Assembly: GCF_036850765.1 (NCBI RefSeq)
Contig: NC_089492.1
Span: 168,886,296-168,950,295, forward strand
Direction: 5' to 3'
DNA length: 64,000 nucleotides
Source of the DNA: Saccopteryx bilineata
Taxonomy: Eukaryota > Chordata > Mammalia > Chiroptera > Emballonuridae
The position numbers and the translations under genes were made by a program. Shown piece after piece: positions 233-63,916 of the stretch (position 1 is the first letter of the stretch; each line of letters starts with the position of its first letter). The notes under the pieces are model-generated. The model ran no database searches. It had not been told where the DNA came from and saw nothing but the letters and a program-made list of their open reading frames with translations.

Positions 233-262
233 TTGTTTGTTTGTTTGTTTTTTTGTTTTTTA

Positions 263-683
263 TAAATAAATTTTTATTTAAATGCGGTGACATCAATAAA
301 TCAGGGTACATATATTCAAAGAAAACATTTCCAGGTTATCTTGTCATTTAGTTCTGTTGCATACCCATCCCTCAAAGAGAGATCATCCTCCATCACCCTC
401 TATCCAGTTTTCTTTGTACCCCTCCCCCTCCCCCTCCCTCCTTCCCTCTCGCCACGCCCTGTAACCACCACACTCCTGTCCATGTCTCTTAGTCTCACTT
501 TTATGTCCTACCAATGTATGAAATCCTGCACTTCTTGTTTTTTTCTGATTTGCATATTTCGTTCCGCATAATGTTATCAAGATTCCACCAATCTGCTGTA
601 AGTGATTCAATGTCATCATTTCTTCTAGCAGACTAGTATACCATGGTGTATATGTGCCACATCTTCTTTATCCAGCCTTCTAT
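263..683 (-). mobile_element. Second L1 3' end (ORF2 tail and 3'UTR) downstream of the ERV
   Basis: Minus-strand L1 sequence from the end of ORF2 through the G-rich tract to the polyadenylated end. It repeats, in the same orientation, the L1 region already present at about 3236-3545. The 5' edge lies at an A-run next to the ERV segment. It looks like a 5'-truncated L1 that supplied the polyadenylation signal used by the chimeric transcript (inference). Confidence 0.85.
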
Positions 684-2175
684 TTTTTTTTTTTACAGTG
701 GTTAAAAGCTTTTAAGCAAACTCTTGGCCAATACAGCAAGAATCCATAAAAGAGTAGTGTCCTTAACATGTTCACCAAGTCCAAGTTGGCCCCATCACCA
801 TGTCAAATCCCTGAAAAATGCAACCCAACCACAGTTCAGTCTGTAGGATCTGTCACAGGGAGCAGGAGTCCAGGAAAAGTCCACATCCAGGAAAAGTCTG
901 CATGGCACTGGAATTGTTATCACTCGTTCTACACTTTGCAGCTCATGTCCAAGTCCCAGTGACTGCTTTTTCTAGCTGGTAATGATTCAGGTAGACTGGA
1001 GAAACCATTTGCAGCATGTGTGGATATGGAGCTTCTGTTCTCCTCTGCCTGGAGAGATGAGACCAGGTAGCTTTTCCCTGGAGCTCTGCGACTGTGGCAT
1101 GGTAAAGAGAACCTTGGGATACACTAGCTGGGTGGCAAAGGTAGATTCATAATAGAAGTTGGCTAAAAGGGGAAAGAGAGCTCTAAATTAGGAGTAGGTC
1201 CCAGCCTGAAATTTTAGTGGGGCATTGAGGTAGGAGGGATAACAAAAACACTATATATTAAGGAAAGCAGCAGAACATAGGGCTATCAACACCCACAACA
1301 GAGATCTTCAAGGGAAGAATAAAAAACTTGACTATTCAAGCAAAACATAGTTAAGTGGCCCTTGTGCAAATGAGATCAGTTTACCTGCTTCTTGGAACAA
1401 ATACCCTGAGCTCATCCACAGTGTCGTAGATGGGGCCGACGGCCCTGGGCACCTTCAGCCTTCAGTGGAAAACCCCAGCTTTCTGGGCAAGGCTAGGTCA
1501 TAGGTGGCTGGAGCAGGGCTGGAAGAGATTGAACCCTCCCATAGAGGAGTGAGGGGGAAGCCTACCTTCCAGTGTCCCTGTTTCCTCACAGTAGAGGCAT
1601 GTAAGCCTGGCAGGCTTTAGCTCAATGACCTTCCTTTCCACTATTGCAGCAGGACCCAGATGGCATCCCAGGAGACCCCTTTGGGGCATTGGAGCCTTTA
1701 AGGGCATATCCTAAAAGCTGGTAGTTCCCCTGATCTCTATTGGGCTTTTTCTGCCTCTAGGTATCTTAAAAGCCATGCTCAGAAGATCTCGCTGAGGGGT
1801 TTGAGGATCCCCATCCGCCTATATAAATCTTTTCCATATATCTGGAGCTATTTGGAAAAAGACAAAACAGTGTTATTAGCTGGATCTAATAAAGAAGGTA
1901 GTGGTTTGCAGGCGAAAAAGATTTGGTGTCTCCTGTTCATCAGCCTTCAAAAGAAATGTAAAAAAAAAATTTTTTTTAAGTAAAAAGCATGATATGGTAG
2001 ACCCGTAGGAGTTCCAGGATATGACTACCCCCTTTAAAATTGTTTTTTTTTTAATTGACCTTAAAATGTTTGCTGAGTACACTTTAATAATACCTTAACT
2101 TTAAAGATTGTAAGCATGAGAAAATACAGTAAATGCTTTTGCTCCATATGCAGGAGCTTTTTCAGTTAATCCAGT

Positions 2176-2570
2176 TTAGGAAATCCAATAATAGAACAAT
2201 GCATACAGACCATGAGCTATAGCATGCTTAGCAGCCTCTCCTATTCTGACAGAGGTTACTATAGATCCGGAATATGAAGCCACTGTAATGTGGACATACG
2301 ACTGTTTGCCAAATGAAGGTATATGAGTAACATCCATCTGCCAAAGTTGTCCTGGTATGGGTCCTTGAGTGTTAACTCCAAATGAGGGAGCAGTATAGGA
2401 CCTCTTGGACAGGATTTCCGAATCTTCCATGCTGCTTCCTGAGAAAGTTGAAACTGTTTAAACTGGGCTGCAGCATTCTGGTGATGAATAGTATGAGACT
2501 GACTTGCTCAGTCTGTCGTGGTTGCTCCATATAATTTTCTTTTGGGTAGCTTGGTCAACAAGGGCATTCC
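2176..2570 (-). pseudogene. Betaretrovirus-like integrase fragment
   Basis: The minus-strand reading shows the start of a retroviral integrase catalytic core: GQLWQMDVTHIPSFGK followed by YVHITV. The Asp of WQMD is the expected first catalytic residue. The frame then stops after ALFYYWIS, before the region where the second catalytic Asp would lie, so the core is truncated. The upstream half of the zinc-binding domain is separated from it by the SINE at 2572-2993 and is degraded. It resembles class II (betaretrovirus-like) endogenous elements; family assignment needs a database search. It is non-functional. Confidence 0.75.
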
Positions 2571-2571
2571 T

Positions 2572-2993
2572 AGGCCCTGGCCGGCTGGCTCAGCGGCAGA
2601 GCATCGGCCTGTCGTGCAGGATTCCTGGGCCAGAGCACACAGGAGAAGCACTCATCTACCTCACCACCCCTCCCCCTCTCCTTCCTCTCCGCCTCTCTCC
2701 TCCCCTCCCACAGCCAAGGCTCCACCGGAGCAAAGCCACCCCGGGCACTAAGGATGGCCCCATGGCCTCCGCTTCAGTTGCCAGAATGGCCCTGGTTGCA
2801 ACAGAGTAACACCCCAGATGGGCCGAGCATTCTCCCCTGGTAGGCATGCCAGGTGGATCCCGGTCAGTTGCATGCGGGAGTCTATCTGACTGCCACCCCA
2901 TTTCCATCTTCAGAAAAATACAAAAAACAAAGAAATAAAAGAAAAATATAACAAAAAACAAACAAACAAACAAAAAGAAAAGAGTAAAAAAAA
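2572..2993 (+). mobile_element. Rhin-1-like tRNA SINE inside the ERV
   Basis: It starts with the tRNA-like GGCCCTGGCCGG-type head with A and B box-like segments, has the CT-rich middle and GC-rich tail part, and ends in an A-rich stretch. It is flanked by an 11-bp near-duplication (AGGGCATTCCT at 2561-2571, GGGGCATTCCT at 2996-3006). The same insertion point is occupied in the two other composite copies. Confidence 0.9.
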
Positions 2994-3280
2994 GGGGGGC
3001 ATTCCTTTGTGTTAAAGCTCCAGGGAGCATGGAGTGAGCTTGAGTATGTCCTATGAAACATGGAGCTCTATGTTGACATATAAGTCTTTGGAGAAGGAGG
3101 AACTGTTGAAATAGTTCATCAGCATTTGTCCCTAAGACAGCAGTCTTTATAGTGGAAACACCATAAGTAAATGCTTGATGTCTGTCTATAGATTAAAGGG
3201 GGAATATGGCAAATGCTGAAAAGCCATGATCTTTGTGCCCCTCCCCTCCCCCAGAACCCTTCCCTCTCCTACCCCCACCC

Positions 3281-3398
3281 TGTAACCCCAACCCTGTTGT
3301 CCATGTCTTTGAGTCTCATCTTTATGTCCCACTTATGTATGTAACCCCAACCCTGTTGTCCATGTCTTTGAGTCTCATCTTTATGTCCCACCTATGTA
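3281..3398 (-). repeat. 59-bp tandem duplication at the end of L1 ORF2
   Basis: Two nearly identical 59-bp units (3281-3339 and 3340-3398) cover the ORF2 end and the start of the 3'UTR. The other L1 copies in the window have a single unit. Confidence 0.85.
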
Positions 3399-6300
3399 TG
3401 GAATCATATAGTTCTTAGTTTTTTCTGATTTACTTCTTTCACTCCGTATAATGTTATCAAGGCCCATCCATGTTGTTGTAAAAGATCCTATGTCATCATT
3501 TCTTATGGCTGAGTAGTATTCCATAGTATATATATACCAAAGCTTTTTAATCCACTCGTCCTCTGACGGACACTTGGGCTGTTTCCAGATCTTTGCTATT
3601 GTGAACAATGCTGCCATAAACATGGGGGTGCATTTCTTCTTTTCAAACAGTGCTATGGTGTTCTTGGGGTATATTCCTAACAGTGGTATAGCTGGGTCAA
3701 AAGGCAGTTCGATTTTTAATTTCTTAAGGAATCTCCATACTGTTTTCCACAGTGGCTGCACCAGTCTGCATTCCCACCAGCAGTGCAGGAGGGTTCCCTT
3801 TTCTCCACATCCTCGCCAGCACTTATTCTATGTTGTTTTATTGATGAGTGCCATTCTGACTGGTGTGAGATGGTATCTCATTGTGGTTTTAATTTGCATT
3901 TCTCTAATCATTAGTGATGTTGAACATTTTTTCATATGCCTTCTGGCCATCTGTGTGTCCTCTTTGGAGAAGTGTTTATTCATTTCTTTTGCCCATTTTT
4001 GGATTGGATTGTTTGTCTTCCTGGTATTAAGTTTTACAAGTTCTTTATAAATTTTGGTTATTAACCCCTTATCAGACGCAGTGTCAAATATGTTCTCCCA
4101 TTGTGTAGTTTGTCTTTTTATTCTGTTCTTATTGTCTTTAGCTGTGCAGAAGCTTTTTAGTTTGATAAAGTCCCATTTGTTTATCCTGTCTTTTATTTCA
4201 CTTGCCTGTAGAGACAAATCAGCAAATATATTGCTGTGAGAGATGTCAGAGAGCTTATTGCCTATGTTTTCTTCTAAGATGCTCATGTTTTCACAGCTTA
4301 CATTTAAGTCTTTTATCCATTTTGAGTTTATTTTTGTGAGTGGTGTAAGTTGGTAGTCTAGTTTCATTTTTTTGCAGGTAGCTGTCCAATTTTCCCAACA
4401 CCATTTGTTGAAGAGACTATCTTTACTCCATTGTATTTCCTTACCTCCTTTGTCAAATATCAGTTGTCCATAGAGCTGTGGGTTTATTTCTGAGTTCTCT
4501 GTTCTGTTCCATTGATCTATGTGCCTGTTCTTATGTCAGTACCATGCTGTTTTGAGTACAATGGCCTTATAATATAACTTGATATCTGGAAGTGTGATCC
4601 CTCCTGCTTTATTCTTCCTTTTCAAGATTGCTGAGTCTATTCGTGTTCTCTTTTGGTTCCATATAAATTTTTGGAATATGTGTTCTATATCTTTGAAGTA
4701 AGTCATTGGTATTTTAATCAGTATTGCATTGAATTTTTAAATTGCTTTGGGTAATATAGACATTTTAATGATGTTGATTCTTCCTAACCATGAGCACGGT
4801 ATATGCCTCCACTTATTCATATCTTCCCTGATTTCTTTTATCAATGTTTTATAATTTTCTGAGTACAAGTCTTTAATCTCCTTGGTTAGATTTATTCCTA
4901 GGTACTTTATTTTTTTGGTTGCAATGGTAAAGGGGATTGATTCCTTGATTTCTCTTTCTGACAGTTCATTATTAGTGTAGAAAAATGCCTCTGATTTCTG
5001 AGTATTGATTTTATATCCTGCCACCTTGCCGAATTCATTTATCAGGTCTAGTAGTTTTTTGACTGAGACTTTAGGGTTTTCTATGTACAATATCATATCA
5101 TCTGCAAATAATGATAGTTATACTTCTTCTTTTCCACCTTGAATGCCTTTTATTTCTTCTTCTTGTCTGATTGCTGTGGCTAGGACTTCCAGAACTATGT
5201 TGAATAAGAGTGGTGAAAGGGCACTCCCCTGCCTTGTTCTTGATCTTAAGGGGATTGCTTTTAATTTTTGCCCATTGAGTATGATGTTGGCTGTGGGTTT
5301 CTCATAGATGGCCTTTATCGTGTTGAGGTATGTTCCCTGTATTCCCACTTTGCTGAGAGTTTTGATTATGAATGGGTGCTGGATTTTATCAAATGCTTTT
5401 TCTGCATCTATTGAAATTATCATGTGTTTTTCTCCTTTCTTTTGTTTATGTGATGAATCACATGGATTGATTTGCAAATATTGTACCAGCCTTGCCTCCC
5501 AAGAATGAATCCCACTTGATCATGGTGTATGATTTTTTTCATATATTGGTGAATCCGGTTTGCTAATATTTTGTTGAGGATTTTTGCATCTAAGTTCATC
5601 AGGGATATTGGCCTATAATTTTCTTTTTTTGTGTTGTCTTTGCCTGGTTTTGGAATCAGAATTATGCTCTCCTCATAAAAGCAGTTTGGAAGTCTTCCTT
5701 CCTCTTGAATTTTTTGAAATAGCTTGAGAAGGATAGGAGTTAGTTCTTCTTTGAATAGTTGGTAGAATTCACTTGTGAAGCCATCAGGCCCAGGACTTTT
5801 CTTTTTTGGGAGTTTTTTGATAGCTGTTTCCATCTCATTTGTTGTAATTGGTCTGTTTAGGTTTTCTGATTCTTCCAGATTGATTTTTGGAAGATTATAT
5901 GATTCAAGGAATTTGTCCATTTCATCTAGGTTGTCTAGTTTTTTGGCGTACAGTTCTTCATAGTATTTTCTTACAATATTTTGTATTTCTGTTGTGTCAG
6001 TTGTTATTTCTCCACTCTCATTTCTAATTTTATTTATTTGAGTCCTCTCTCTTTTTTTTCTTGATGAGTCTCGTTAAGGGTTCATCGATCTTGTTTACCT
6101 TTTCAAAGAACCAGCTCCTGGTTTCATTGATCCTCTGAATTTTTTCTTTAGCCTCTATGTCATTTATTTCTGCTCTGATCTTTATTATTTCCTTCCTTCT
6201 ACTAGCTCTGGGCTTTACTTGCTGTTCTTTTTCTAGTTCTTTTAGATGCAGGGATAAGTTGTTTATTTGAGCTTTTTCTAGCTTCTTGAGCTATGCCTGT

Positions 6301-7201
6301 AATGCTATAAACTTCCCTCTCAGGACTGCTTTTGCTGTGTCCCATGAATTTTGAGTTGATGTATGCTCATTATCATTTGTTTCTAGGAATTTTTTAATTT
6401 CTTCTTTGATCTCAGTGTTAACCCATTCATTATTTAATATCATCCTATTTAGTTTCCAAGTGTTTAAATGTTTTTCAATTTTTCTATTGTGGTTGATTTC
6501 TAGTTTAATGCCATTGTAATCAGAGACAGTGCTCGATATGATTTCAATCTTTTTAAATTTGTTGAGATCACTTTTGTTCCCTAAGATGTGGTCTATTCTA
6601 GAGAATGTACCATGAGCACTTGAAAAGAATGTATATGCTGCTGTTTTAGGGGGAAAGGTTCGGAAGATATCTATTAAATCGAGTTGATATAATATGTTTT
6701 TTAAGTCTGCTGTTTCTTTGTTAATTTCCTTTCTTGAGGATCTATCTAATGATGTTAATGGGGTATTGAAATCCCCTACTATTATAGTATTGCTATTGAT
6801 CTCACCCTTTAAGTCCATCAAAGTCTGCTTTATATAATTAGGTGCTCCTATATTAGGTGCGTAGATATTTATAATGGTTATATCTTCCTTTTGGATTGCT
6901 CCCTTTATCATTATGTACTGACCTTCTTTATCTCGAACTATGGTCTTTGTTTTAAAGTCCATTTTGTCTGATATAAGTATTACTACCCCAGCTTTTTTTT
7001 CATTTCCATTTGCATGGAATATTTTTTCCATCCTTTTATCTTCAGTCTGTGTGCATCTTTTGATTTAAGGTGTGTCTCTTGTAGACAGAATATGTATGGG
7101 TCCTGTTTGCTTATCGATGCAGCTATCCTATGTCTCTTGATCGGATCATTTAATCCATTAACATTTAAGGTTATTACTGATATGTAATTGTTTATTGACA
7201 T
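3381..7201 (-). pseudogene. L1 ORF2 (endonuclease and reverse transcriptase), inactivated
   Basis: ORF2 supplies the target-nicking endonuclease and the reverse transcriptase for L1 and its parasites. The endonuclease begins at about 7201 (MSINNYISVITLNVNGLN) and runs to about 6300. Fingers/palm motifs such as [17 protein letters not shown] lie at about 5780, and the FADDMILYI active-site motif at about 5090-5110. The frame is broken in several places: a shift near 7000, stops near 6290, and a stop three codons upstream of FADD at about 5116-5118, where the copy at 58519-59349 has a Lys. The C-terminus ends MIPYIGGT. The protein cannot be made from this copy. Confidence 0.85.
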
Positions 7202-7260
7202 TTTTTTTTCTTTAAAACTGTATTCCTCTTTTCTTGTATTCTTATTTTCCTTTGATCTGT

Positions 7261-8174
7261 TTACCACAGGTCCCTTAGCATTTCTTGCAGCCTTGGTTTG
7301 GTTGTAGTGAATTCCTTGAGGTTTCTTTTTTTGTCTGTAAACCTTTTTATTTCTCCTTCAATTTTAAATAATAGCCTTGCTGGATAAAGTAGTCTTGGTT
7401 GTAGTTTCTTGTTCTGCATTACTTTGAATATTTCTTGCCATTCCCTTCTGGCCTCAAGTGTTTCTGTTGAGAAGTCAGAAGTCATCCTTATGGGGGCTCC
7501 TTTGTAGGTGGTAGCTTTTTTTCTCCTGCAGCTTTTAATATTTTCTCTTTATCACTTAGCTTTGGTATTTTAATTATGATATGTCTTGGTGTTGGTTTCT
7601 TTGGGTTTCTCCTTAATGGAGTTCTCTGTGCTTCCTGAACATGTGAAATGTTTTCCTGCCTTAATTGGGGGAAGTTTTTTGCTATGATATGTTTGAACAA
7701 AGTCTCTATCCCTTATTCTTTCTCTTCTTCTTCAGGAACCCCTATGATGCGGATGTTGTTTCTCTTCATGTTGTCACAGAGCTCTCTTAGAGTTTCCTGA
7801 GACTTTTTGAGTCTCTTTTCTTTTTTCTGCTCTGCTTCCGTGCCTTTATTTATCATGTCCTCTAACTCACTGATTCGATTCTCTGCTTCATCCATCCTGC
7901 TTTTAATTCCTTCCATTGTATTTTTTATTTCAGATATTGTATTTGTCATTTCTGACCGATTATTTTTTATTATTTCAATGTCCTTTTTTATATTTGTTAT
8001 CTCTTTATTTAGGTTTTCATAATGGCTATCTATGGTTGTTCTAATATCTTTGAGCATCCTAACAATCGTTATTTTAAACTCTGCATCTGGTAATTTGGTT
8101 ATATCTGATTCACTCAGGTCCTTTTCTGGGGATTTCTCTTGGTTTATTTGTGTTGTATTTCTCTGCCTCTGCAT
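7261..8174 (-). pseudogene. L1 ORF1 (RNA-binding protein), inactivated
   Basis: The N-terminal half is a coiled coil rich in Glu, Lys and Ile (about 8050-7790). It is followed by the RNA-recognition part (NNIRIIGVPEEEE at about 7740) and the C-terminal domain with PRHIIIKIP and ARREWQEIFKVMQNK. An internal stop lies at about 7711-7713 and a frameshift near 7490. The start was chosen at the Met that opens MQRQRN, because upstream residues look like 5'UTR read-through. ORF2 begins about 60 bp downstream of the ORF1 end. Confidence 0.8.
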
Positions 8175-8219
8175 TTTCTCTTTATGGGAGTGGCTGTGAT
8201 CATGCGCTCGGGTGTACAA

Positions 8220-9514
8220 ACGTTGGTGGCCTTGGCCTTTGCCCAGCCCCCGTGTGTGACATTATGCTCGGTCCTGAGGGCACTGGCGAGCACCTTTGCT
8301 CAGCTGCGAATCTCAGCCTGTTTCCGGGCTTTTGCCCTGCCCTTGCAGGAGGAGCCCGCTTGAGGAACGGCTGCTAGCCTTGGCTCTACCACTGGGTAGG
8401 AATGCGTGCCCAAGTTCAGCTCAGTAGCGGAACTCTGTCTCTTCTGGGCTTTTGGCTCCACCCCCTTTGGAGGAGCCAGCCAACAAGTCAGACCGCAAGC
8501 CTGGGTTGCACGGGCGGGGCAAGGCTGTGCTCCTCTGCTCTTGCCCCGGGGCTTGTCTCCACCCTTTCCGGGGTTCCCTCCCTTCTCCTGCAGGCTGGAT
8601 TACAGGCTGCCAGCAGCTGAGTTTGACCCCTTTTGCACACCCCCTTCCCCCAGCCAGGCAAGATTGAGCTCACACCTGAGCCCAGTGGTGGCCAGCTGGC
8701 TTTCGCCCCTGCCAGCAGAACCGTGCTTTTGTCTCACGCTGCCGCCGGCCCTCTGGCGAGCCCTCAGCCACGTGGGCGGGGGAGTTGCAGCTCGGACCCT
8801 AAGACTCACTGCTGTAGACCCAAAAGCTCCCTCCTTCTATACAGCTCTGCTCTGAGTGCTGCAGGGGAGCTTGTTTGGCTGCTCTCCTGCTTCCCTTTGC
8901 TTGTATTGCTGTTTCTGGGGGAAATATTCACTTCAGCTTTGGGGAGTGACTCATCCCAGGGGTTAGAGTGGCTATCTCCCAAAATGTTTCTCCCCTTGCC
9001 TCCAGATTATACTCTCTTCCTGTCACTCTGGTCCTCTCCCCTCTCCCTCTGTCCCCAGGAGTCCTGGATGAGTGTTTGTGAGAGAGATGTTCTGTGCGGT
9101 TCCTTTAAGAAGGATCCTGGGTCTGAGAAATTAGACTCTTTCTCACAAACAGTATCCTGACTTATTTCCAGCTAAATACTGTCCTTATGCCTCTTCTGGA
9201 CTCTGGGGCTGCAGGCTGGGGCTTTGTTCCTGGGGCTCAGGACCCTTCCCCCTCTGCTAAACTCACTTCCCGCCAAGCGAGTCTCTCCCTGCTGCCGTTT
9301 GCTCTGGGGAGCTGGGCAGCCCTCTCCGTGTTTCTGCTTTTTCTACCAGTCTTGGTTTGGCTTCTTCAGTGTACCTTGGTTGAAGAGTCCTCTTAGTTTA
9401 GTCCAATGGTGGTTTTTCCAGATGATAGTTCCAAAAATTAGTTTGTATTCCACTTTGGTTCTGGGAAGTAGATGTTGCTACGTCCACCTAGTCCAGTGCC
9501 ATCTTGTCTCTCTC
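8220..9514 (-). promoter_or_regulatory. L1 5'UTR / internal promoter region
   Basis: GC- and CpG-richer than its surroundings, with no convincing coding frame. It sits directly upstream of ORF1 and ends at the 5' boundary of the insertion (minus-strand start near AGAGACAAGATGGC). L1 5'UTRs carry an internal Pol II promoter, and that role is assigned by position. A distant relative of this region is seen at 56780-57440. Confidence 0.7.
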
Positions 9515-9526
9515 CCTATTATTCTT
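9515..9526. repeat. Target site duplication of the full-length L1 (right copy)
   Basis: CCTATTATTCTT, identical to 221-232. Confidence 0.9.
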
Positions 9527-17245: not shown

Positions 17246-18048
17246 ATGGATACAAAAGATAGAGAAGTAACACAGATATATGTGGAAAAATCTATGGAGA
17301 AAAAATTTAATATATTGGAAACCTTGGAGCTAAATGACAGAGAACTTAAAATAAAAATTCTAAAAATAGAGATATACAAGAAAACACAGAAAGGCAATTT
17401 AGGGAGCTCAGAAAACAACTCAATGAACACAAAGAATATATTACCAAGGAAATTGAAACTATAAAAACAAATCAAAGAGAGATGAAAAACTCAATTCGCA
17501 AACTGAAAAACGAGGTAATAAGTTTAGCTAATAGAACAGGCCAGATAGAAGGTAGGATTAGTGACATACAAGACAAGCAACTTGAGGCACAACAGAGACA
17601 AGAAGAAAGACACTCAAAAATTTAAAAAAATGAGAAAGCCCTACAGGAATTGTCTGACTCCATCAAAAAGAATAACATAGGTATATCAGAGAAAGAAGAG
17701 AGAGAAAATGATATGGAGAATTTATTCAAACAAATAATAAACGAGAACTTCCCAAGCCTGTGGAAAGAACTAAAGCCTCAAATTCAAGAAACAAACAGAA
17801 TTCCGAATTTTCTTAACTCCAACAAACCTACTCCAAGGCACATCATAATGAAACTGGCACAAACCAACGACAAAGAAAAAATTCTCAAGGCAGCCAGGGA
17901 ACAGAAGAATACAACATTTAAAAGGCCTATTAGATTATCATCAGATTTTTCAGCAGAAACTCTACAAGCTAGAAGAGAGTGGACCCCAATATTTAAAGCC
18001 CTGAAAGAGAGGAACTTTCAGCCAAGAATACTATACCCATCAAAGTAA
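17246..18048 (+). pseudogene. L1 ORF1
   Basis: RNA-binding ORF1 protein. It starts at MDTKDREV, with a coiled-coil region to about 17600, then NNIGISEKEE and the C-terminal domain (PRHIIMKLAQ, ARREWTPIFKALKERNFQPR). A frameshift near 17460-17620 and a stop at 18046 break it; similar coding potential continues to about 18194. It lacks an intact frame, so no product is expected. Confidence 0.8.
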
Positions 18049-18519
18049 TCCATCAAGTACGAAGGAGAAATAAAAACATTCACAAATACAGAAAAGATAA
18101 GGGAATTTATCATCAGAAAACCCCCACTCCAGAAAATACTAAAGGGGGTTTTCCAACCAGATCCAAAGAACAAAACAAAACAAAACCACATGTAAAAGCT
18201 CCACCAAGAACACAATAAAACCAAATTTAAACTGTGACAACAAAAGCAAAAAAAGGGGAGAGGATGGAGATTAACAGTAGCAAAGGACAATGACGTGCAG
18301 AAACACTCACAAGATGGGGTATTACAATGAATATGGTAGGTACCCTTTTCATTACTTAATGGTAACCACCCTTGAAAAAACCACCACAGAAGCACATGAC
18401 TTAAAAAAGATAGCAACAGAGGAAAGAAGTATGGAATACAAACAAACAAAATCAAAGGATAGAAAAACAAAAGAGCAGAATAAAACAAGATACAAAACTA
18501 ACAGAAAGCAATTTATAAA

Positions 18520-21500
18520 ATGGCAATAGGGAACACACAAGTGTCAATAATTACACTAAATGTAAATGGATTAAACTCACCAATAAAAAGACACTGAGTA
18601 GCAGAATGGATTAAAAAAGGAAATCCAACTGTATACTGCCTACAAAAAACACATCTAAGCAACAAGGGTAAAAACAAATTCAAAGGGAAAGGATGGAAAA
18701 CAATACTCCAAGCAAACAACATCCAAAAAAAAGCAGGCTTTGCAATACTCATATCTAATAATGCTGAGTATAAGACAGCAAAAGTACTCAGAGACAAAAA
18801 TGGTCATTTCATAATGATTAAGGGGACACTGAATCAAAAAGAAATAACAATCTTTAATATATATGCACCAAACCAAAAATACAATCATACTTGGAGACCT
18901 CAATACACCGCTGATGGCTCTAGATCAGTCATCCAAACAGAGAATCAATTAAGATATATTGGTCTTAAACAAAACACTAGAGCACCTGGATATGATAGAC
19001 ATCTTCAGGACATTTCATCCCAAAGCGACAGAGTATACATTTTTCTCTAGTGTACATGGAACATTTTCAAGAATTGACCATATGTTGGGCCACAAAAATT
19101 ACATCAGCAAATTCAGAAAAATTGAAATTGTACCAAGCATATTTTCTGATCATAAAGCCTTGAAACTAGAATTCAACTGCAAAAAAGAGGAAAAAACCCC
19201 CACAAAAATGTGGAAACAACATACTTTTAAAAAATGAGTGGGTCAAAGAAGAAATAAGTGCAGAGATCAAAAGATATATACAGACAAATGAAAATGACAA
19301 TACAACATATCAGAATCTATGGGATGCAGCAAAAGCAGTAATAAGAGGGAAGTTCATATCACTTCAGGCCCACACGAACAAACAAGAGAGAGCCCAAGTG
19401 AACCACTTAACTTCACACCTCAAGGAACTAGAAAAGGAAGAACAAAGACAACCCAAAACCAACCAAAGAAAGGAGATAATAAAAATCAGAGCAGAAATAA
19501 ATGAAATAGAGAACAGAAAAACTATAAAAAAATTAATATCACAAGAAGCTGGTTCTTTGAAAAGATCAACAAAATTGACAAACCCGTGGCAAGACTCACT
19601 AAGGAAAAAGGAGAAAGGACTCATATAAACAAAATCCAAAATGAAAGAGGAGAAATCACCACAGACATCAGGTATATAGAAAGAATTATTGTAGAATACT
19701 ACAAAAAACTGTATGCCACCAAATTCAACAATCTAGAAGAAATGGATAAATTCCTAGAACAATACAACCTTCCTAGACTGAGTCAAGAAGAAGCAGAAAG
19801 CCTAAACAGACCTATTAGTAGAGAAGAAATAGAAAAAACCATTAAAAACCTCCCCAAAAATAAAAGTCCAGGCCCTGACGGGTATACCAGTGAATTTTAT
19901 CAAACATTCAAAGAAGACTTGGTTCCTATTCTACTCAAAGTCTTCCAAAAAATTGAGGAAGAAGCAATACTTCCAAACACATTTTATGAGGCCAACATAA
20001 CCCTCATACCAAAAACAGGCCAGGATGGCACAAAAAAAGAAAACTACAGACCAATATCTCTAATGAATACAAATGCTAAAATACTAAAAAAAATACTGGC
20101 AAATCAAATACAACAACATATTAAGAAAATAATACATCATGATCAAGTGGGATTCATCCCAGAATCTCAAGGATGGTTCAACATACGTAAAACGGTTAAC
20201 GTAATACACCATATCAACAAAACAAAGAACAAAAACCACATGATCTTATCAATAGAAAAGGCATTCGATAAAATACAACACAAATTTATGTTTAAGACAC
20301 TCAACAAAATGGGTATAGAAGGAAAATATCTCAACATGATAAAGGCCATATATAATAAACCATCAGCCAACATCATATTAAATGGCATAAAACTGAGTAC
20401 TTTCCACCTTAAATCAGGAACAAGACAGGGTTGTCCACTCTCTCCACTCTTATTTAAAGTGGTGCTAGAAGTTCTGGCCAGAGCAATCAGACAAGAGAAA
20501 GAAATAAAAGGCATCCATATCAGAAAAGAAGAAGTACAGGTATAACTTTTTGCAAATGATATGATCCTATACATTGAAAACCCCAAAGACTCCACAAAAA
20601 GATGACTAGAAACAATAAAACAATAAAGTAAGGTGGCAGGATACAAAATTTACATACAAAAGTCCATAGCCTTTCTATATGCCAACAATGAAATATTAGA
20701 AAACGAACTCAAAAAAATCATCCCCTTCATGATTGCAACAACAACAACAAAAATACCTAGGAATAAACATAACAAAGAATGTAAAGGACCTAGATAACGA
20801 AAACTACAAAGCATTGTTAAGGGAAATCGAAAAAAATACAATGAGATGGAAAAATATTCCTTGTTCTTGGATAGGAAGAATAAATATAATATAGATGACC
20901 ATATTACCCAGAGCAATCTATAAATTTAGGCAATTCCCATCAAAATTCCTATGACGTTCTTTAAAGAAATGGATCAAAAAATCTTCAGATTTATATGGAA
21001 CTATAAAAAATCCCGATTAGCCAAAGCAATCCTAAAGAAAAAGAATGAAGCTGAGGGCAATACAATACCTGACTTCAAACTATATTATAGGGCCACGACA
21101 ATCAAAACAGCATGGTATTGGCAGAAAAATAGACACTCAGACCAATGGAACAGAATAGAAAGTCCAGAAATAAAACCACATATATATGGTCAAATAATTT
21201 TTGATAAAGGGGCCAAGAACACACAATGGAGAAAAGACACTCTCTTCAACAAATGGTGCTGGGAAAACTGGAAAGCCACATGCAAAAGAATGAAACTTGA
21301 CTACAGCTTGTCCCCTTGTACTAAAATTAATTCAAAATGGATCAAAGACCTAAATATAAGACCTGAAACAATAAAGTACATAGAAGAAGACATAGGTACT
21401 AAAATCATGGATCTGGGTTTTAAAGAGCATTTTATGAATTTGACTCCAAAGGCAAAAGAAGGGAAGGCAAAGATAAATGAATGGGAGTACATCAGACTAA

Positions 21501-22497
21501 AAAGTTTTTGCTCAGCAAGAGAAACTAACAACAAAATAAACAGCAGCCAACTAAATGGGAAATGATATTTTCAAACCACAGCTCAGATAAGGGCCTAATA
21601 TCCAAAATATACAAAGAACTCATAAAACTCAACAACAAACAATCCAAAAAAACCCCCACTTCTCTCAGGAAGAAATACAAATGGCCAACAGATATATGAA
21701 AATATGCTCATCTCCATTAGTTATTAGAACAGTGGTTCTTAACCTGTGGGTCACGAGCCCGGCGGGGTCATCTAAAGCCATCAGAAAATACATAATGCAT
21801 ATCAGGTATTTACATTCTGAATCGTAAGTGTAGCAAAATTACAGTTATGATGTACCCACCAAAATTATTTTTTGGTTTGGGGTCACCACAACATGAGGAA
21901 CTGTATTGCGGGGTCATGGCATTAGAAAGGTTGAGAACCACTGTATTAGAGAAATGCAAATCAAAACTACAATGAGATACCACCACAAACCTGTTAGATG
22001 AGCTATTATCAACAAAACACGTAATAGCAAATGTTGGAGAGGCTGCGGAGAAAAAGAAACCCTCATTCACTGTTGGTGGGAATGTAAAGTAGTACAACCA
22101 TTATGGAAGAAAGTATAGTGGTTTCTCAAAAAACTGAAAATAGAACTCCCTTATGACCCAGCATTCCCTCTACTGGGTATATACCCCCAAAACTCAGAAA
22201 CATTGATACATAAAGATATATGCAGCCCCATGTTCATTGCAGCATTGTTCACATTGGCCAAGACATGGAAACAACCAAAAAGCCCTTCAATAGAAGACTG
22301 GATAAAGAAGATGTGGCACATATACACTATGGAATACTACTCAGCCATAAGAAATGATGACATCAGATCATTTACAACAAAATGGTGGGATTTTTTTTTT
22401 TTCAAAATGGTAGGATCTTGATAACATTATACGGAGTGAAATTAGTAAATCAGAAAAAACCAAGAACTACATGATTCCATACATTGGTGGGACATAA
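18520..22497 (+). pseudogene. L1 ORF2
   Basis: Endonuclease from about 18520 (VSIITLNVNGLNSPIKRH), with a deletion and frame changes around 18870-18970. The reverse transcriptase is the longest open part (19586-20545), with [17 protein letters not shown] and GCPLSPLLF. The active-site motif reads FAND instead of FADD at about 20546-20557, and a stop directly precedes it. The C-terminal region contains MEYYSAIRN and ends MIPYIGGT. The hAT at 21730-21943 interrupts it. It is catalytically dead. Confidence 0.85.
21722..21951. mobile_element. SPIN-like non-autonomous hAT inside L1 ORF2
   Basis: The element is 21730-21943 (214 bp). Its ends are CAGTGGTTCTTAACC and GGTTGAGAACCACTG, and the 8-bp duplication is TATTAGAA / TATTAGAG. 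Internal text such as the pair of CGGGGTCA and GGGGTCACCACAACATGAGG resembles, from memory, the SPIN/OposCharlie group of hAT elements known for horizontal spread among tetrapods. It has no coding capacity. Confidence 0.8.
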
Positions 22498-22789
22498 AAA
22501 TGAGACTAAGAGACATAGACAAGAGTTTGGTGGTTGCTGGGGGTGGAAGGGAGGGGGGGGCGCGGGAGGGAAGGAGAGGGGAAGGGGAGGGGGAGGGGCA
22601 GAAAGAAAACTAGATAGAGGGTGACGGAGGACAATCTAACTTTGGGTGTTGGGTATGCAACATAATTGAATGACAAGATAACCTGGACATGTTTTCTTTG
22701 AATATATGTACCCTGATTTATTGATGTCACCCCATTAACATTAATAAAAATTTATCTATAAAAAAGGAATGATACAATTCTTTTTATCA

Positions 22790-24721: not shown

Positions 24722-25864
24722 ATGCCACCAAGGAAGAAGAAGTTGAATACCATGGTTATACCAGAAAGAGTCTTAGTTTAAAAGTAAAATAAAAAATCTC
24801 CAGAAAGCAAGCTTAATCACATGGAGAACTTGGAGTTAAACAATAGAGAATTCAAAATCAAAGTTCTGAAAATAATGGATGGGAGAAAACACTGATAGGC
24901 AATTTAATGAGGTAAAAAAGCAAATTAATGAACAAAGTGAGTACTTATAGGAGATTTAAACTTTAAAAACAGAATGGAAAAACTCAATACGTGAATTGGA
25001 AACTGATATAGCAAGATTAGCTAATAGATCAAGCCAGAAAGAGTAAAGAATCAGTGACACTAAAGACAGGCAACTAGAGATGCTACAGAAAGAAGAGGAG
25101 AGAGACCTACAAATTAAAAAAAAAATGAGAGAGCTTTACAAGAATTGTCTGACTCCATCAGAAAGAACAATATAAGAATAATGGGTATATCAGAAGAAGA
25201 AGAGATAAAGAAGGTAATGGAGAGCCTATTCAAACAAATAATTGATGAGCACTTCCCAAGCTCATGTGAAGAGTTAGAGCCTCAAATCCAAGAAGTAAAC
25301 ATAACACTGAGTTACCTCAACTCAAACAGACCTTCTCCAAGGAATATCGTAGTAAAATTGTCAAAAATCAATGATGAAAGAATCCTCAAGGAAGCTAGGG
25401 AAAAGAAAAATGTAAGCAGAAGTTCCATTAGGTTATCATCGAACTTCTCAGAAGAAACTCCATAAGACAGAAGAGAGTGGACCCAAACATTCAAAGTGTT
25501 GAAAGAGAGGAATTACCAGCCAAGAAGACTATATCCATCAAAGTTACCCTTCAAATATGAAGAAGAAATAAAACCTTTTACAGACATACAGAAGCTGAGG
25601 GAATTTATCACTAGAAAATCTCCTCTGTCAGAAATACTCAAGGAGGTTATTCAATCAGACATAAAGAACAAAACATATCAGTTTAGATCTAATTTTCTGT
25701 TAATGGCCCTATCATTTTTTGGGAGACATGATATGTATCAAATATACATGAGAAAGGAGGAAATCCTGCCATTTGTGACAACATTGATGGACTGTGAGAG
25801 TATTGTGCTAAGTGAAATAAGTCAGAGAGAGAGACTACCACTGTATGATCCCACTTATATGTGA
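24722..25864 (+). pseudogene. HAL1 ORF1 joined to an ORF2 C-terminal tail
   Basis: The ORF1 domain is clear from 25145: NNIRIMGISEEEE, FKQIIDEHFPSSCEELEPQIQ, then PFKYEEEIKPFTDIQKLREF. In the same frame, after one stop at 25463-25465, the reading continues through KEVIQSDIKNK into ILPFVTTLMDCESIVLSEIS, the end of L1 ORF2, and stops at 25862-25864. So ORF1 and the ORF2 tail form one frame apart from a single nonsense codon. The N-terminal part (from MPPRKKK at 24722) is more decayed. The role would be RNA binding only. Confidence 0.7.
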
Positions 25865-46437: not shown

Positions 46438-46454
46438 AAGATCAGGTTACTCTT

Positions 46455-46793
46455 TTATTTCACTTGCCTGTGGAGACAAACCAGCAAATATATTGCTGCG
46501 AGAGATGCCAGAGAGCTTATTGCCTATGTTTTCTTCTAAGATGCTCATGGTTTCATGGCTTACATTTAAGTCCTTTATCCATTTTGAGTTCATTTTTGTG
46601 AGTGGTGTAAGTTGGTGGTCTAGTTTCATTTTTTTGCAGGTAGCTGTTCAATTTTCCCAACACCATTTGTTGAAGAGGCTGTCTTTACTCCAATGTATGC
46701 TCTTATCTCCTTTGTCAAATATCAGTTGTTGATAAAAGTGTGGGTTTATTTCTGGGTTCTCAGTTCTGTTCCATTGATCTATATACCTGTTCT
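46455..46793 (-). mobile_element. Inverted L1 ORF2 piece of composite B
   Basis: Minus-strand ORF2 C-terminal region ([20 protein letters not shown]), colinear with about 4190-4530 of the large L1. It lies just inside the left target duplication, opposite in orientation to the rest of the insertion. Confidence 0.85.
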
Positions 46794-47093
46794 GATCCAC
46801 CCGGCATGCCTACCAGGGGAGAATGCTCTGCCCATCTGGGGTGTTGCTCTGCTGCAGCCAGAGCCATTCTAGCACCTGAGTCAGAGGCCACGGGGCCATC
46901 CTTAGCGCCCGGGGTGGCTTTGCTCCGGTGGAGCCTTGGCTACGGGAGGGGAAGAGAGAGACAGAGAGGAAGGAGAGGGGGAGGGGTGGAGAGGCAGATG
47001 GGTGCTTCTTCTGTGTGCTCTGGCTGGGAATTGAACCTGGGACTCCTGCACACCAGGCTGATGCTCTACCACTGAGCAAACCGGCCAGGGCCT
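46794..47093 (-). mobile_element. Rhin-1-like SINE in composite B, truncated
   Basis: Same insertion point in the ERV as at 2572 and 63917 (next to TAGGAATGCCC). The SINE 3' part is lost at the inversion joint, at GATCCACC. Confidence 0.85.
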
Positions 47094-47097
47094 AGGA

Positions 47098-47496
47098 ATG
47101 CCCTTGTTGATCAAGCTACCCAAAAGAAAATTATTTGGAGCAACCACAACAGATAGAGCAATTCAGTCTCATACTATTCATCACCAGAATGCTGCAGCCC
47201 TGTGTAAACAGTTTCAACTTTCTCCGGAAGCAGCACGGCAGATTGGGAAATCCTGTCCAAGGGGTCCTATACTACAATCTGCCCCTTCATTTGGAGTTAA
47301 CCCTCAAGGACCCATACCAGGACAACTTTGGCAAATGGATGTTACTCGTATACCTTCATTTGGCAAACAGTCCTATGTCCACGTTACAGTGGATACATAT
47401 TCTGGATTTATAGTAACCTCTGTCAGAACAGGAGAGGCTGCTAAACGTGTTATAGCTCATTGTCTGTATGCATTGTTCTATTATTGGATTTCCTAA
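47098..47496 (+). pseudogene. Betaretrovirus-like integrase fragment (copy B)
   Basis: The longest integrase frame of the three copies, about 130 codons without a stop. It contains a His-rich HTIHH zinc-domain segment, one Cys-Pro of the expected paired Cys region, and GQLWQMDVTRIPSFGK with VHVTVDTYSGFI. The frame ends ALFYYWIS before the second catalytic Asp, as in the other copies, so the truncation predates their spread. It is non-functional as an integrase. Confidence 0.8.
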
Positions 47497-48645
47497 ACTG
47501 GAAGCTCCAGATATATGGAAAAGATTTATATAGGCGAATGGGGATCCTCAAACCCCTCAGCGAGATCTTCTGAGCATGGCTTTTAAGATACCTAGAGGCA
47601 GAAAAAGCCCAATAGAGATCAGGGGAACTACCAGCTTCTAGGATATGCCCTTAAAGGCGCTCCAATGCCCCAAAGGGGTCTCATAGGATGCCATCTGGGT
47701 CCTGCTTCAATAGTGGAAAGGATGGTCATTGAGCTAAACTTACATTGCCAGACTTACATGCCTCTGCTATGAGGAAACAGGGACACTGGAAGGTAGGCTT
47801 CCCACTCGCTCCTCTAAGGGAGGGTTCAATCTCTTCCAGCCCTGCTCCAGCCACCTATGACCTAACCTTGCCCAGAATGCTGGGGTTTGCCACTGAAGGC
47901 TAAAGGTGCCCAGGGCTGTCAGCCCCATCTATGACACTGTGGATGAGCCTAGGCTATTTCTTCCAAGAAGCAGGTAAACTGATCTCATTTGCACAAGGGC
48001 CACTTAACTATGTCTTGCCTGAATAGTCAGGTTTTTTATTCTTCCCTCGAAGATCTCTGTTGTGGGTGTTGATAGTCTTATTTTCTGCTGCTTTGTTTAA
48101 TATATAGTGTTTCCTTTATTCCTCCTACCTCAATGCCCCACTCATATTTCAGGCTGGGACCTACTCTAATTTAGAGCTCTCTTTCCCCCTTTTGCCAACT
48201 TCTATTATGAATCTACCTTTGCCACCCAGCTTAGTGTATCCCAAGGTTCCCTTTACCAAGCCACAGTCACAGAGCTCCAGGGAAAAGCAACCTGGTCTCA
48301 TCTCTCCAGACAGAGGAGGACAGAAGTTCCATATCCACACATGCTGCAGATGGCTTTTCCAGTCTATCTGAATCATTACTAGCTAGAAGCATCAGTCATT
48401 GGGACTTGGACATGAGCTGCAAAGTATAGAATGGTGACAACAATTCCAGTGCCATGCGGACTTTTCCTGGACTCCTGCTCCTTGTGACAGCTCCTAACAG
48501 ACTGAACTGGGGTGGGGTTGCATTTTTCATGGATTTGGCATGGTGTTGGGGCCAACTTGGAGTTGGTGAACATGTTAAAGACACTACTCTTTTATGGATT
48601 CTTGCTATATTGGCCAAGAGTTTGCTTAAAGGCTTTATTCACTGT
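47497..48645 (+). mobile_element. Degraded ERV part of composite B
   Basis: Colinear with 2175-684 (reverse), but lacking about 330 bp just after the integrase end (joint near 47503, AAACTGGAAGCTCCAG). A zinc-knuckle-like reading with GHWKVGFP occurs near 47780. No long frame. Confidence 0.7.
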
Positions 48646-49086
48646 AAAAAAAATAGAATACTAGATAAAGAAGATGTGGCACATATACACCATGGTATAC
48701 TATTCAGCCATAAGAAATGAGGACATCGGATCACTTACAACAAAATGGTGGGATCCTGGTAACATTATACGAAGTGAAATAAGTAAATCAGAAAAAAAAA
48801 AGAATTGCAGGATTCCATACAGTGGTGGGACATAAAAACGAGACTAAGAGACATGGACAAGAGTGTGGTGGTTACGGGGGGCAGGGGGAGGGGAGGAGGG
48901 AGAGGGGGAGGGGGAGGGGTACAATGCAAACTAGATAGAAGGTGACGGAGGACAATCTCTCTTTGGGTGATGGGTATGCAACAGAATTGAATGACAAGAT
49001 AACCTGGAGATGTTTTCTTTGAATATATGTACCCTGATTTATTGATGTCACCCCATTAAAATAAAAATCTATTTATAAAGAAAAAA
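48646..49086 (+). mobile_element. L1 3' end of composite B
   Basis: End of ORF2, a G-rich 3'UTR tract (about 48875-48920), the terminal 3'UTR (GATTTATTGATGTCACC) and an A-rich tail. Confidence 0.9.
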
Positions 49087-49103
49087 AAGATCAGGTTGCT
49101 CTT

Positions 49104-58167: not shown

Positions 58168-58518
58168 TGGACTGTTCTCTTTCTGGTGTTGAGATTTACA
58201 AGTTGTTTATAAATTTTGGTTATTAACCCCTTATGAGATGTACTGTCAAATATGTTCTCCCATTGTGTAGTTTGTCTTTTTATTCTGTTCTTATTGTTTT
58301 TGGCTGTGCAAAAGCTTTTTAGTTTGATCTAGTCCCATTTGTTTATCCTGTCTTTTATTTCACTTGCCTGTGGAGATAAATCAGCAAATATATAGCTGTG
58401 AGAGATGTCAGAGCTATGTTTTCTTCTAAGATGATTTTGGTTTTTTCACGGCTTACGTTTAAGTCTTTTATCCATTTTGAGTTTATTTTTGTGAATGGTG
58501 TAAGTTGGCAGCCTAGTT

Positions 58519-61500
58519 TCATTTTTTTTTGCAGGTAGATGTCCAATTTTCCCAACACCATTTATTAAAGAGGCTGTCTTTAATCCATTCTGTGCCCTTA
58601 CCTCCTTTGTCAAATATCAGTTGTCCATAGAGCTGTGGGTTTATTTCTGGGTTCTCCGTTCTGTTCCATTGATCTATGTGCCTGTTCTTATGCCAGTACC
58701 ATGCTGTTTTGAGTACAATGGACTTGTAGTATAGCTTGATATCAGGAAGTGTGATGCCTCCCCCTTTATTCTTCTTTTTAAAGATTGCTGAGGCTATTTG
58801 TGTTCTCTTTTGGTTCCATATAAATTTTTGAAATATTTGATCTATATCTTTAAAGTATGTCATTGGTATTTTAATTGGTATTGCATTGAATTTATAAATT
58901 GCTTTGGGTAATATAGACATTTTAATGATGTTTATTCTTCCTAACCATAAGAACGGTATATTCTTCCACATGTTTGTATCTTCTTGGATTTCTTTTATCA
59001 ATGTTTTATAATTTTCCGAGTACAAGTCTTTAGTCTCCTTGGTTAAATGTACTCCTGGGTACTTTATTTTTTTGATTGTAATAGTGAAGAAGATTGTTTC
59101 CTTAATTTCTCTTTCTGACTGTTCATTGTTGGTGTATAAAAATGCCTCTGATTTCTGAGTATTAATTTTATATCCTGCCACTTTGCTGAATTCATTTATC
59201 AGGTCCAGTAGTTTTTTGACTGAAACTTTAGGGTTTTCTATATACAATATCATATCATCTGCAAATAATGATAGCTTTACTTCTTCTTTTCCAACTTGAA
59301 TGCCTTGTATTTCTTCTTCTTGTCTGATTGCTGTGGCTAGGACTTCCAAACTATGTTGAATAAGAGTGGTGAAAGGGGCACCCCTGCCTTATTCCTGATC
59401 TTAAGGGGATTGCTTTTAACTTTTGCCCATTGAGTATGATGTTGGCTCTGGGTTTCTCATAGATGGCTTTTTTCATGTTTAGGTATGTTCCCTGTATTTC
59501 TACTTTGTTGAAAGTTTTGATCATGAATGGGTGCTGGATTTTATTAAATGCTTTTTCTGCATCTATTGAAATTATCATGTGGTTTTTCTCCTTCCTTTTG
59601 TTTATGTGATGAATCACATTGAATGATTTGCGAATATTGTACCAGCCTTGCCTCCCCAGAATAAATGCCACTTGATCATGGTGTATGATTTTTTCCATAT
59701 ATTGTTGGATCTGGTTTGCTAATATTTTGTTGAGGATTTTAGCATCAATATTCATCAGGAATATTGGCCTATAGTTTTCTTTTTTTGTATTGTCTTTGCC
59801 TGGTTTTGGAATCAGAATTATGCTCACCTCATAATAGGAGCTTGGAAGTTTTCCTTCATTTTGAATTTTTTGAAATAGCTTGAGAAAAATAGGAGTTAGT
59901 TCTTCTTTAAATATTTGGTAAAATTTACATGTAAAGCCATCAGGCCCAGGACTTTTCTTTGTTGGGAGTTTTTTTGATAACTGTTTTTATCTCATTTGTT
60001 GTAATCGGTCTGTTTAGGTTTTCTGATTCTTCCAGATTGATTTTTTTTTTTTGTATTTTTCTGAAGTTGGAAATGGGGAGAGACATTCAGACAGACTACC
60101 GTATGCGCCCGACCGGGATCCACCCGGGACACCTACCAGGGGCGATGCTCTGCCCACCAGGGGGTGATGCTCTGCCCCTCTGGGGCATCGCTCTGTTGCG
60201 ACCAGAGTTACTCCAGCACCTGGGGCAGACACCAAGGAGCTATCCCCAGCGCCCGGGCCATCTTTGCTCCAGTGGAGCCTCACTGCGGGAGGGGAAGAGA
60301 GAGACAGAGAGGAAGGAGAGGGGAAGGGGTGGAGAAGCAGATGGGTGCTTCGCCTGTGTGCCCTGGCCGGGAATCAAACCTGGGACCCCTGCACGCCAGG
60401 CCGATGCTCTACCACTGAGGAAACCAGCCAGAGCCTTCCAGATTGATTTTTTGAAGATTGAATGTTTCAAGGAATTTGTCCATTTCATCTAGGTTGTCTA
60501 GTTTTTTGGCATATAGTTCTTCATCGTATTTTCTTACAATATTTTGTATTTCTGTTGTGTCAGTTGTTATTTCTCCACTCTCATTTCTAATTTTATTTAT
60601 TTAAGTTCTGTTTTTTCTTGGTGAGTCTGGTTAAAGGTTCATCAATCGATCTTGTTTACCTTTTCAAAGAACCAGCGCCTAGTTTCATTGATCCTCTGTA
60701 TTGTTTCTTTAGCGTCTATGTCATTTATTTCTGCTCTGATCTTTATTATTTCCTTCTTTCTACTACACTTGGGCTTTACTTGCTGTTCTTTTTCTAGTTT
60801 TTTTAGATGCAGGGTTAAGTTGTTTATTTGAGCTTTTTCTAGTTTCATAATGTGTGCCTGTAGTGCTATGAACTTCCCTCTCAGTACTGCTTTTTCTGTG
60901 TCCCATAAATTTTGACTTATTGTATGCTCATTATCATTCATTTTTAGGAATTTTTAAATTTCTTCTTCGATCTCATTCTTAATCCATTTGTTATTTAACA
61001 ACCTGCTATTTAGGTTCCATGTGTTTGAGAATTTTTTAGCTCTTCTGTTGTGGTTGATTTCTATTTTCATGCCATTGTGATCTAGAAAGTGCTGGATATG
61101 ATTTCAATCATCTTAAATTTCTTGAGACCGTCTTTGTGCCCTAACATGTGGTCTATCCTAGGGAATGTACCATGAGCACTTGAAAAGAATGTATATTCTG
61201 CTGCTTTAGGATGAAAGGTTCTGAAGATATCTATTAAATCCAGTTGATGTAGTGTGTCGTTTAAGTCTGCTGTTTCCTTGTTAATTTTCTTTCTTGGGGA
61301 TCTATCTAGTGATGTTAGTAAGATATTAAAATCCCCTACTATCATAGTTTTGCTGTTGATCTCACCTTTTATATCCATCAAAGTCTGATTTATATATTTA
61401 AGTGCTCCTATATTAGGTGCATAGATATTTATAATAGTTATATCTTCGTGTTGGATTGCTCCCTTTATCATTATGTAGTGACCTTCTTTATCTCTTACTA

Positions 61501-61640
61501 TATTCTTTGTTTTAAAGTCCATTTTGTCTGATATAAGTATTTCTACCCCAGCTTTTTTTTTTTTCATTTTCATTTGCATGAAATGGTTTTTTCCATCCTT
61601 TTACCTTCAGTCTATGTGCATCTTTTGATTTAAGGTGTGT
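58519..61640 (-). pseudogene. L1 ORF2 reverse transcriptase/endonuclease remnant
   Basis: Endonuclease at 61082-61579 ([35 protein letters not shown]). The RT has PGPDGF-type sequence near 59950 interrupted by the SINE, and an open stretch at 58519-59349 with [16 protein letters not shown], so the FADD catalytic motif is intact here. A frameshift near 59350 and further stops upstream prevent a full protein. Confidence 0.85.
60036..60452 (-). mobile_element. Rhin-1-like SINE in the L1 fragment
   Basis: About 60047-60434, reverse. Well preserved, with TTCCAGATTGATTTTT duplicated on both sides. Confidence 0.9.

Positions 61641-61995: not shown

Positions 61996-61997
<2 letters not shown>

Positions 61998-62042
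<45 letters not shown>
61998..62042. repeat. (TA)n microsatellite at the ERV-L1 joint
   Basis: About 22 TA units occupy the position where copies A and B have an A-run. Confidence 0.95.
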
Positions 62043-62043
<1 letters not shown>

Positions 62044-63905: not shown

Positions 63906-63916
63906 AAGGGCATTCC

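Follow-up and report, generated by a model that had tools for sequence, protein, structure and literature searches.

3' transduction is generally regarded as a chance event that happens now and then and labels small groups of L1 offspring. Human families of this kind were reportedly described by Sanchez-Luque et al. in 2019. One of them, with 14 members, is called the largest to date in an excerpt of PMC6425141. According to excerpts of PMC4859970 and PMC13174262, SVA, to which LAVA and PVA are related, is a non-coding composite that is moved in trans by L1. The second of these sources (Law and Burns 2026), in the same excerpt, describes L1 chimeras and ascribes opposite orientation within them to twin priming. 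Here, we analyze a stretch of 64,000 nucleotides from the bat Saccopteryx bilineata (NC_089492.1, C3:168886296-168950295; the window) that holds, at 233-9514 on the minus strand, an L1 whose 3' region is made of retroviral sequence, a short interspersed element (SINE) and the 3' end of a second L1. This element is very probably a copy of an L1 family that gained its 3' region by 3' transduction and then kept that region as a part of the element.

A composite L1 and its copies in the genome

Reading the minus strand from 9514 to 233, an L1 5' untranslated region (UTR), open reading frame 1 (ORF1), ORF2 and a cut 3' UTR are followed by a retroviral stretch with a SINE inside it, a distal segment, an A-rich joint, a second L1 3' end and an A-rich tail. 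The features of this copy (copy 1) are as follows.

233-9514, minus strand: whole element, between exact 12-bp target duplications
221-232: target-site duplication, left copy, CCTATTATTCTT, identical to 9515-9526
9515-9526: target-site duplication, right copy, supported by a paralogous uninterrupted site
8220-9514, minus strand: L1 5' UTR, with the element 5' end at 9514; aligned to the 5' UTR of other loci
7261-8219, minus strand: L1 ORF1 region, broken; longest open piece, 168 amino acids
3382-7205, minus strand: L1 ORF2 region, broken; endonuclease (Exo_endo_phos) and reverse transcriptase (RVT_1) domains detected by Pfam in its pieces
3231-3381, minus strand: truncated 3' UTR of the L1 body, which stops just beyond a G-rich tract and carries part of a tandem duplication of about 59 bases
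3221-3240, minus strand: joint 1, from L1 3' UTR to retroviral RNase H, in sense GGGGCACAAAG followed by ATCATGGC; 41 aligned rows and exact 34-mers
3007-3230, minus strand: 3' part of a retroviral RNase H, as a remnant; long-form pieces crossing the same point match Pfam RNase_H
2572-2996, plus strand: SINE within the retroviral segment, which we take to be of the tRNA type, with its own 10-bp duplication
2171-2571, minus strand: betaretrovirus-type integrase remnant; Pfam rve here, Integrase_Zn and rve in copy 2, and integrases in PDB
1850-2170, minus strand: continuation of the integrase (by eye) and other sequence, absent from copy 2
690-1849, minus strand: distal segment, retroviral according to the original prediction and gag-protease-like by eye only; no Pfam match for the pieces tested
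679-690, minus strand: joint 2, A-rich, leading to the second L1 3' end; an A or TA tract whose length varies in copies 1-3
270-678, minus strand: 3' end of a second, older L1, with polyadenylation signal
233-269, minus strand: A-rich tail

The original prediction, made from the sequence of the window, had described a full-length L1 and a retroviral segment inserted as a single unit, and it placed the boundaries correctly, at an exact 12-bp target duplication. The chance of a match of at least 12 between random pairs of sites in the window is 0.037%. The insertion target was the ORF1 of an older L1. In a paralogous L1 ORF1 near 25,130-25,240 in the window the insertion site is uninterrupted and the sequence runs through, and a second paralog near 17,680 is without 10 bases at this site. 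The first 5' base of the element is common to L014, L016, L027 and L028 in the 5' UTR alignment with the window copy, and identity in the ORF1 region is 93-95% to the fetched loci that contain ORF1. The tandem duplication of about 59 bases (3289-3400 of the window copy) spans the ORF2 end and the 3' UTR; full-length matches to joint 1 are about 60 bases shorter than the window copy and appear to be without it.

Copies were sought in the animal's own genome (2.61 Gb in 256 contigs). The exact 34-bp sequence of joint 1 occurs 750 times (378 + 372; control, 0 + 0). A 501-base query over this joint gave 42 matches (best 40 of 2583 first-look candidates, window included), and with an 86-base query all 40 scored places match (window included; best 40 of 964 candidates). 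DNA queries score the best 40 places and are thus biased toward close relatives of the window copy, a bias from which the pattern count of 750 is free. All 41 aligned rows (the window copy and L009-L048) break at the same position, and about 12 of them have a small change nearby. Loci chosen by the 3' end of ORF2 gave the same picture: all 20 picked continue into the RNase H part at this joint, partially in L037 and L041. These were the first 20 of 40 places listed once the window and two loci already fetched had been set aside, and 19 were new to the joint-1 list, on which L043 already stood. Joint 2 was spanned in 40 of 40 scored places (window's own included; best 40 of 760 candidates), and neither joint is confined to this locus.

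The original prediction had also proposed a count of loci that carry the joints, a tail and distinct target duplications. This was run on about 10 kb from each of the 20 best other places found with the 501-base query (L009-L028). The L1 body, joint 1, the RNase H part and the SINE are present in 20 of 20, and the second L1 tail is present in 19; none is visible in the fetched stretch of L027, and in L020 about 260 bases of other sequence precede the tail. In 12 of the 20, the 5' UTR starts within 10 bases of the element 5' end, while L015, L023 and L025 are 5' truncated inside ORF2 and L011 has a 5' inversion, both of them usual by-products of L1 insertion. Target duplications were sought by matching the 3' flank of each locus to the 5' boundary of that locus and, as a mismatched control, to those of the other loci, leaving out L027, whose 3' end lies outside the fetched stretch. 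At a score of at least 11, duplications are found at 13/19 loci versus 19/342 mismatched pairs, and by a strict cut (score of at least 10 with at least 6 non-A letters) at 12/19 versus 5/342. The hallmarks of L1 insertion, target duplication and A-rich tail, are thus seen in the window copy (12 bp), in a second copy in the window (copy 2; 17 bp, one mismatch) and at 12 of 19 other loci.

Four of these loci (L018, L020, L022 and L024) have deletions that reach from the SINE into the mid or distal segment. That of L018 differs, and L020, L022 and L024 have a mid-segment breakpoint in common, which suggests that this deletion form may have spread as well; the trees firmly pair only L020 and L022.

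The second L1 3' end with its A-rich tail, another part of the original prediction, is present and comes from a different, older L1, as its identity is 73% to the body's own 3' UTR versus 84% to an old L1 at another place in the window. A provirus inserted into an L1 3' UTR is ruled out, since the L1 parts on either side overlap and are of different subfamilies. An L1 at 17666-22765 on the opposite strand is older and more diverged (about 72% identity in ORF2), and its 3' end is the closest relative of the element tail in the window, copies 1-3 aside.

The long form, the deletion and the transduced sequence

Comparing the window with itself revealed two more copies of the block that runs from the retroviral sequence to the L1 tail.

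46455-49086, plus strand: copy 2, with an inverted L1 ORF2 piece (to 46796), partial SINE, retroviral segment and L1 tail
61719-64000, minus strand: copy 3, with a retroviral segment and a 3'-truncated L1 tail, inside an L1 ORF2; extends about 1.3 kb past the window

When copy 3 is followed past the window (L062), its RNase H part proves to be preceded by retroviral sequence that is absent from the short form, the form of the window element. A 241-base query over this native long-form junction gave 41 matches, at 97-98% in full-length rows besides the query (best 40 of 1830 candidates), and its exact 34-mer occurs 54 times in the genome. Because older copies retain fewer exact 34-mers, the numbers of exact junctions, 750 for the short form and 54 for the long, are not evidence of expansion; first-look candidates reverse the order (964 short versus 1830 long), with queries of unequal length.

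Six long-form loci were fetched (L063-L068). The four that reach it, L063-L066, all show an L1 body, a shortened L1 3' end, an A-tract, the retroviral part and then the same downstream parts, although the fetched stretch of L064 stops ahead of its tail. L067 and L068 are 5' truncated at different points and have no collinear L1 body; the flanks of L068 match, by inspection. A query over the L1 end, the A-tract and the start of the retroviral part spans this joint in 40 of 40 scored places (own included; best 40 of 1442 candidates). An L1 3' end followed by an A-tract ahead of the retroviral part is what 3' transduction predicts, and the precedent named in the original prediction holds for the long form.

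From the G-rich tract to RNase H, the four long forms are each longer than the short form, by 1082-1087 bases. By this comparison, the window form is apparently an internal deletion of about 1.1 kb from the long form, with a single origin. The L1-endogenous retrovirus (ERV) joint near 3230, which the original prediction placed near 3236, recurs as expected but is not the original fusion. Splicing was rejected as its source: no GT donor is present on the L1 side, and comparison with the long form reveals a simple loss of 1.08 kb. A tree built from the distal segment unites the 20 short forms (window copy plus 19 loci) with support of 100/96 and leaves the six long forms and copies 2 and 3 outside, with L064 nearest (87/78). 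Tree and deletion together indicate an order of 3' transduction, spread of the long form, one deletion and spread of the short form. Mean pairwise Kimura two-parameter distance in the distal segment is 0.044 among short forms and 0.061 among long forms; with a substitution rate of about 2.2 per billion years, the ages would be, very roughly, 10 and 14 million years, respectively.

Copy 2 (46438-49103 with its flanks) is a copy of the long lineage with a 5' inversion. It lies between a 17-bp duplication with one mismatch (46438-46454 and 49087-49103), and its retroviral segment has no counterpart of 1850-2170. It was rejected as proof of short-form spread, since the trees place it outside the short forms. 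Copy 3 (58168-64000 and L062) is a protease-to-tail block truncated at both ends and without an A-tail, inside an L1 ORF2. Its host L1 has lost about 14 bases and no duplication is seen, and copy 3 may have arrived by endonuclease-independent insertion or as a repair patch. In this copy joint 2 (61995-62043) has turned into a long TA repeat. The idea that copy 3 was a unit never joined to L1 is rejected by the long form.

About 2.5 kb of ERV-derived sequence had been predicted in the window element. A retroviral integrase is indeed present, but about 0.42 kb of this length is the SINE at 2572-2996, flanked by the 10-bp duplication GGGCATTCCT at 2562-2571 and 2997-3006. The position of the SINE is the same in 20/20 short-form loci (shortened in L018, L020, L022 and L024) and in 6/6 long-form loci. 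The types of the SINE and of the L1 agree with a bat host. In copy 2, Pfam detects the zinc-binding domain (Integrase_Zn) and the core (rve) of the integrase, whose best PDB matches are 5cz2 and 3jca, presumably the integrase of mouse mammary tumor virus. In the retroviral part of the window element, Pfam detects only integrase, and the RNase H piece at 2659-3192 has no Pfam match. Among long-form pieces spanning the position of joint 1, RNase_H scores above the curated cutoff in L064 and L062 and just below it in L066. Further upstream, retroviral protease (RVP) is matched in L064 and L066; in total, five of nine pieces from long forms and copy 3 matched RNase_H or RVP and four gave no match. 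A reverse transcriptase fragment between the protease and RNase H pieces was read by eye only.

Open pieces tested from the distal segment (690-1849) and its counterparts in copies 2 and 3 gave no Pfam match. By eye, and with no Pfam support, this segment may derive from another class of retrovirus than the integrase does, in which case two retroviruses may have contributed to the transduced stretch. Searches of viral contigs gave no match, except that one pattern search returned four pattern matches and no relative; a search of genome contigs gave no match, and one further PDB search led nowhere.

Weighing the explanations

That the family arose by 3' transduction and then retained what it had transduced is, in our judgment, well supported, and its anatomy suggests the following course. 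Downstream of a source L1 there would have been decayed retroviral sequence, which already contained a SINE and gave way at its far end to the 3' end of an older L1. Transcription would have read through the source L1's own 3' end, giving an RNA polyadenylated at the signal of the older L1. The long form found at the loci above then spread, with its L1 body, shortened 3' end, A-tract, remnants of protease, RNase H and integrase, SINE, distal segment and L1 tail. As comparison of the two forms shows, one copy lost about 1.1 kb, from the G-rich tract of the L1 3' UTR to RNase H, and with it the internal L1 3' end and the A-tract. The resulting short form reached at least 750 places by target-primed reverse transcription, as duplications, A-tails, truncations and inversions show. 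L1 is known for cis preference. The RNA carries 5' UTR, ORF1 and ORF2, so L1 proteins most likely acted in cis. The original prediction that a chimeric L1-ERV transcript became a mobile unit is thus right in essence, given 750 joints and distinct duplications at 12 of 19 loci; the autonomy that it ascribed to this unit we infer from the cis anatomy only.

Several results weigh against this account. Help in trans from other L1s is possible. A source locus, with the L1 and the downstream sequence as neighbors, was not found among the best 40 places per DNA query. No duplication passed the strict cut at 7 of 19 loci. All 12 near-complete ORF2 regions are interrupted (746 amino acids is the longest stretch without a stop), and the copies examined are fossils with respect to ORF2; ORF1 has a stop-free stretch of 327-362 amino acids in 7 of 17 regions (20 loci and the window copy, leaving out incomplete regions). 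In a sample of places with joint 1, the second L1 tail was visible in only 7 of 10, when 0.8 kb (2.35-3.15 kb downstream) was read at about every tenth of 100 listed places, all on C1; in the other three the tail may be shifted by deletions or insertions or may be missing.

Correlations of pairwise distance across loci were also mixed. ORF2 was poorly correlated with the distal segment (r = 0.32, P = 0.059, 17 loci) and with the tail (r = 0.03, P = 0.43, 18 loci). Higher values came from ORF1 and ORF2 (r = 0.55, P = 0.0015, 17 loci), from the distal segment and the tail (r = 0.87, P = 0.0005, 22 loci), and from ORF1 and the distal segment (r = 0.88, P = 0.024, 17 loci, including copy 3, whose ORF1 is from another L1). 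A star-like family gives weak correlations, so these values neither prove nor disprove co-inheritance of the parts, which is settled by the common joints.

The alternative that survives best, and is still improbable, is that the retroviral segment and the L1 tail were an older, non-autonomous, SVA-like unit, mobilized in trans, that an L1 captured at a later time. In its favor, copies 2 and 3, L067 and L068 have no collinear L1 body, and copies 2 and 3 lie outside the short forms in the trees. However, four of the six long-form loci have the L1 body upstream through the common A-tract joint, which 40 of 40 scored places span. Long forms without an L1 body have no fixed 5' start, as L067 and L068 begin at different points, and 5' truncation and twin priming explain the copies that lack a body. 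The inversion in copy 2 fits the opposite orientation that the excerpt of PMC13174262 ascribes to twin priming.

It is very unlikely that the union of L1 RNA with retroviral-L1 RNA was one accident at this locus, made by template switching or twin priming during a single insertion. Such L1 chimeras are known (in the excerpt of PMC13174262), and the position of the joint, 3230, is not one at which an element naturally ends. A one-off event is nevertheless refuted by the recurrence of this joint, 750 times in the genome and at one and the same breakpoint in each of the 41 aligned rows. A single founding switch that produced the long form is possible, yet an L1 3' end followed by an A-tract is the prediction of 3' transduction.

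Spread by segmental duplication or as proviruses can be set aside almost entirely: the family is repeated and holds retroviral genes, but its ends are an L1 5' UTR and an L1 3' end with a tail rather than long terminal repeats (LTRs), duplications are 10-17 bp, 5' truncation points vary between loci, and the distinct target duplications at 12 of 19 loci rule out segmental duplication.

Within the favored history of transduction and retention, a more tentative proposal, which we consider doubtful at present, is that the acquired block serves as a working replacement 3' end. The lineage would first have come to use the polyadenylation site of an older L1 in place of its own, and would afterward have dropped the internal 3' end and A-tract, leaving a new and very long 3' UTR. 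If true, L1 lineages could replace their 3' ends in this way. Swaps of the 5' UTR have been proposed as an analogous replacement at the other end of L1 (excerpt of PMC13174262).

Comparison with known systems

An L1 family with a retroviral 3' region was not found among the titles and abstract openings listed for Creative Commons-licensed papers in PubMed Central, a search that left subscription papers and repeat libraries outside. In the bat family, a block of retroviral, SINE and old L1 sequence has stayed with a complete L1 coding body across hundreds of insertions and two forms, one after the other. Genome comparisons could thus test two points, namely whether transduction is a means by which L1 lineages renew their 3' ends, and what size of load an L1 RNA tolerates while still spreading. 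In such a genome, retroviral fragments may have been dispersed by L1 and not by retroviral integration, which affects how viral fossils are counted and dated.

The human L1 3'-transduction families, as far as the excerpted source describes them, share with the bat family a bypassed polyadenylation signal, downstream DNA that is carried along and inherited by offspring, target duplications and full-length members. Unlike in the 14-member human family of that excerpt, the transduced block is about 4 kb in the long form, and the deletion form alone accounts for at least 750 copies of the joint. Like SVA, LAVA and PVA in the excerpts of PMC4859970 and PMC13174262, the element is a composite of repeat pieces, LTR-derived sequence included, that was moved by L1 machinery. 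Unlike SVA, which is non-coding and depends on L1 in trans, the unit itself includes an L1 5' UTR, ORF1 and ORF2, and 12 of 20 loci reach to within 10 bases of the 5' end. With the chimeric L1 insertions of Law and Burns (2026; PMC13174262, in excerpt) it shares the fusion of L1 to another RNA-derived sequence in a single insertion; in the chimeras of that excerpt the partner lies 5' of L1, whereas here it lies 3' and is inherited by a family.

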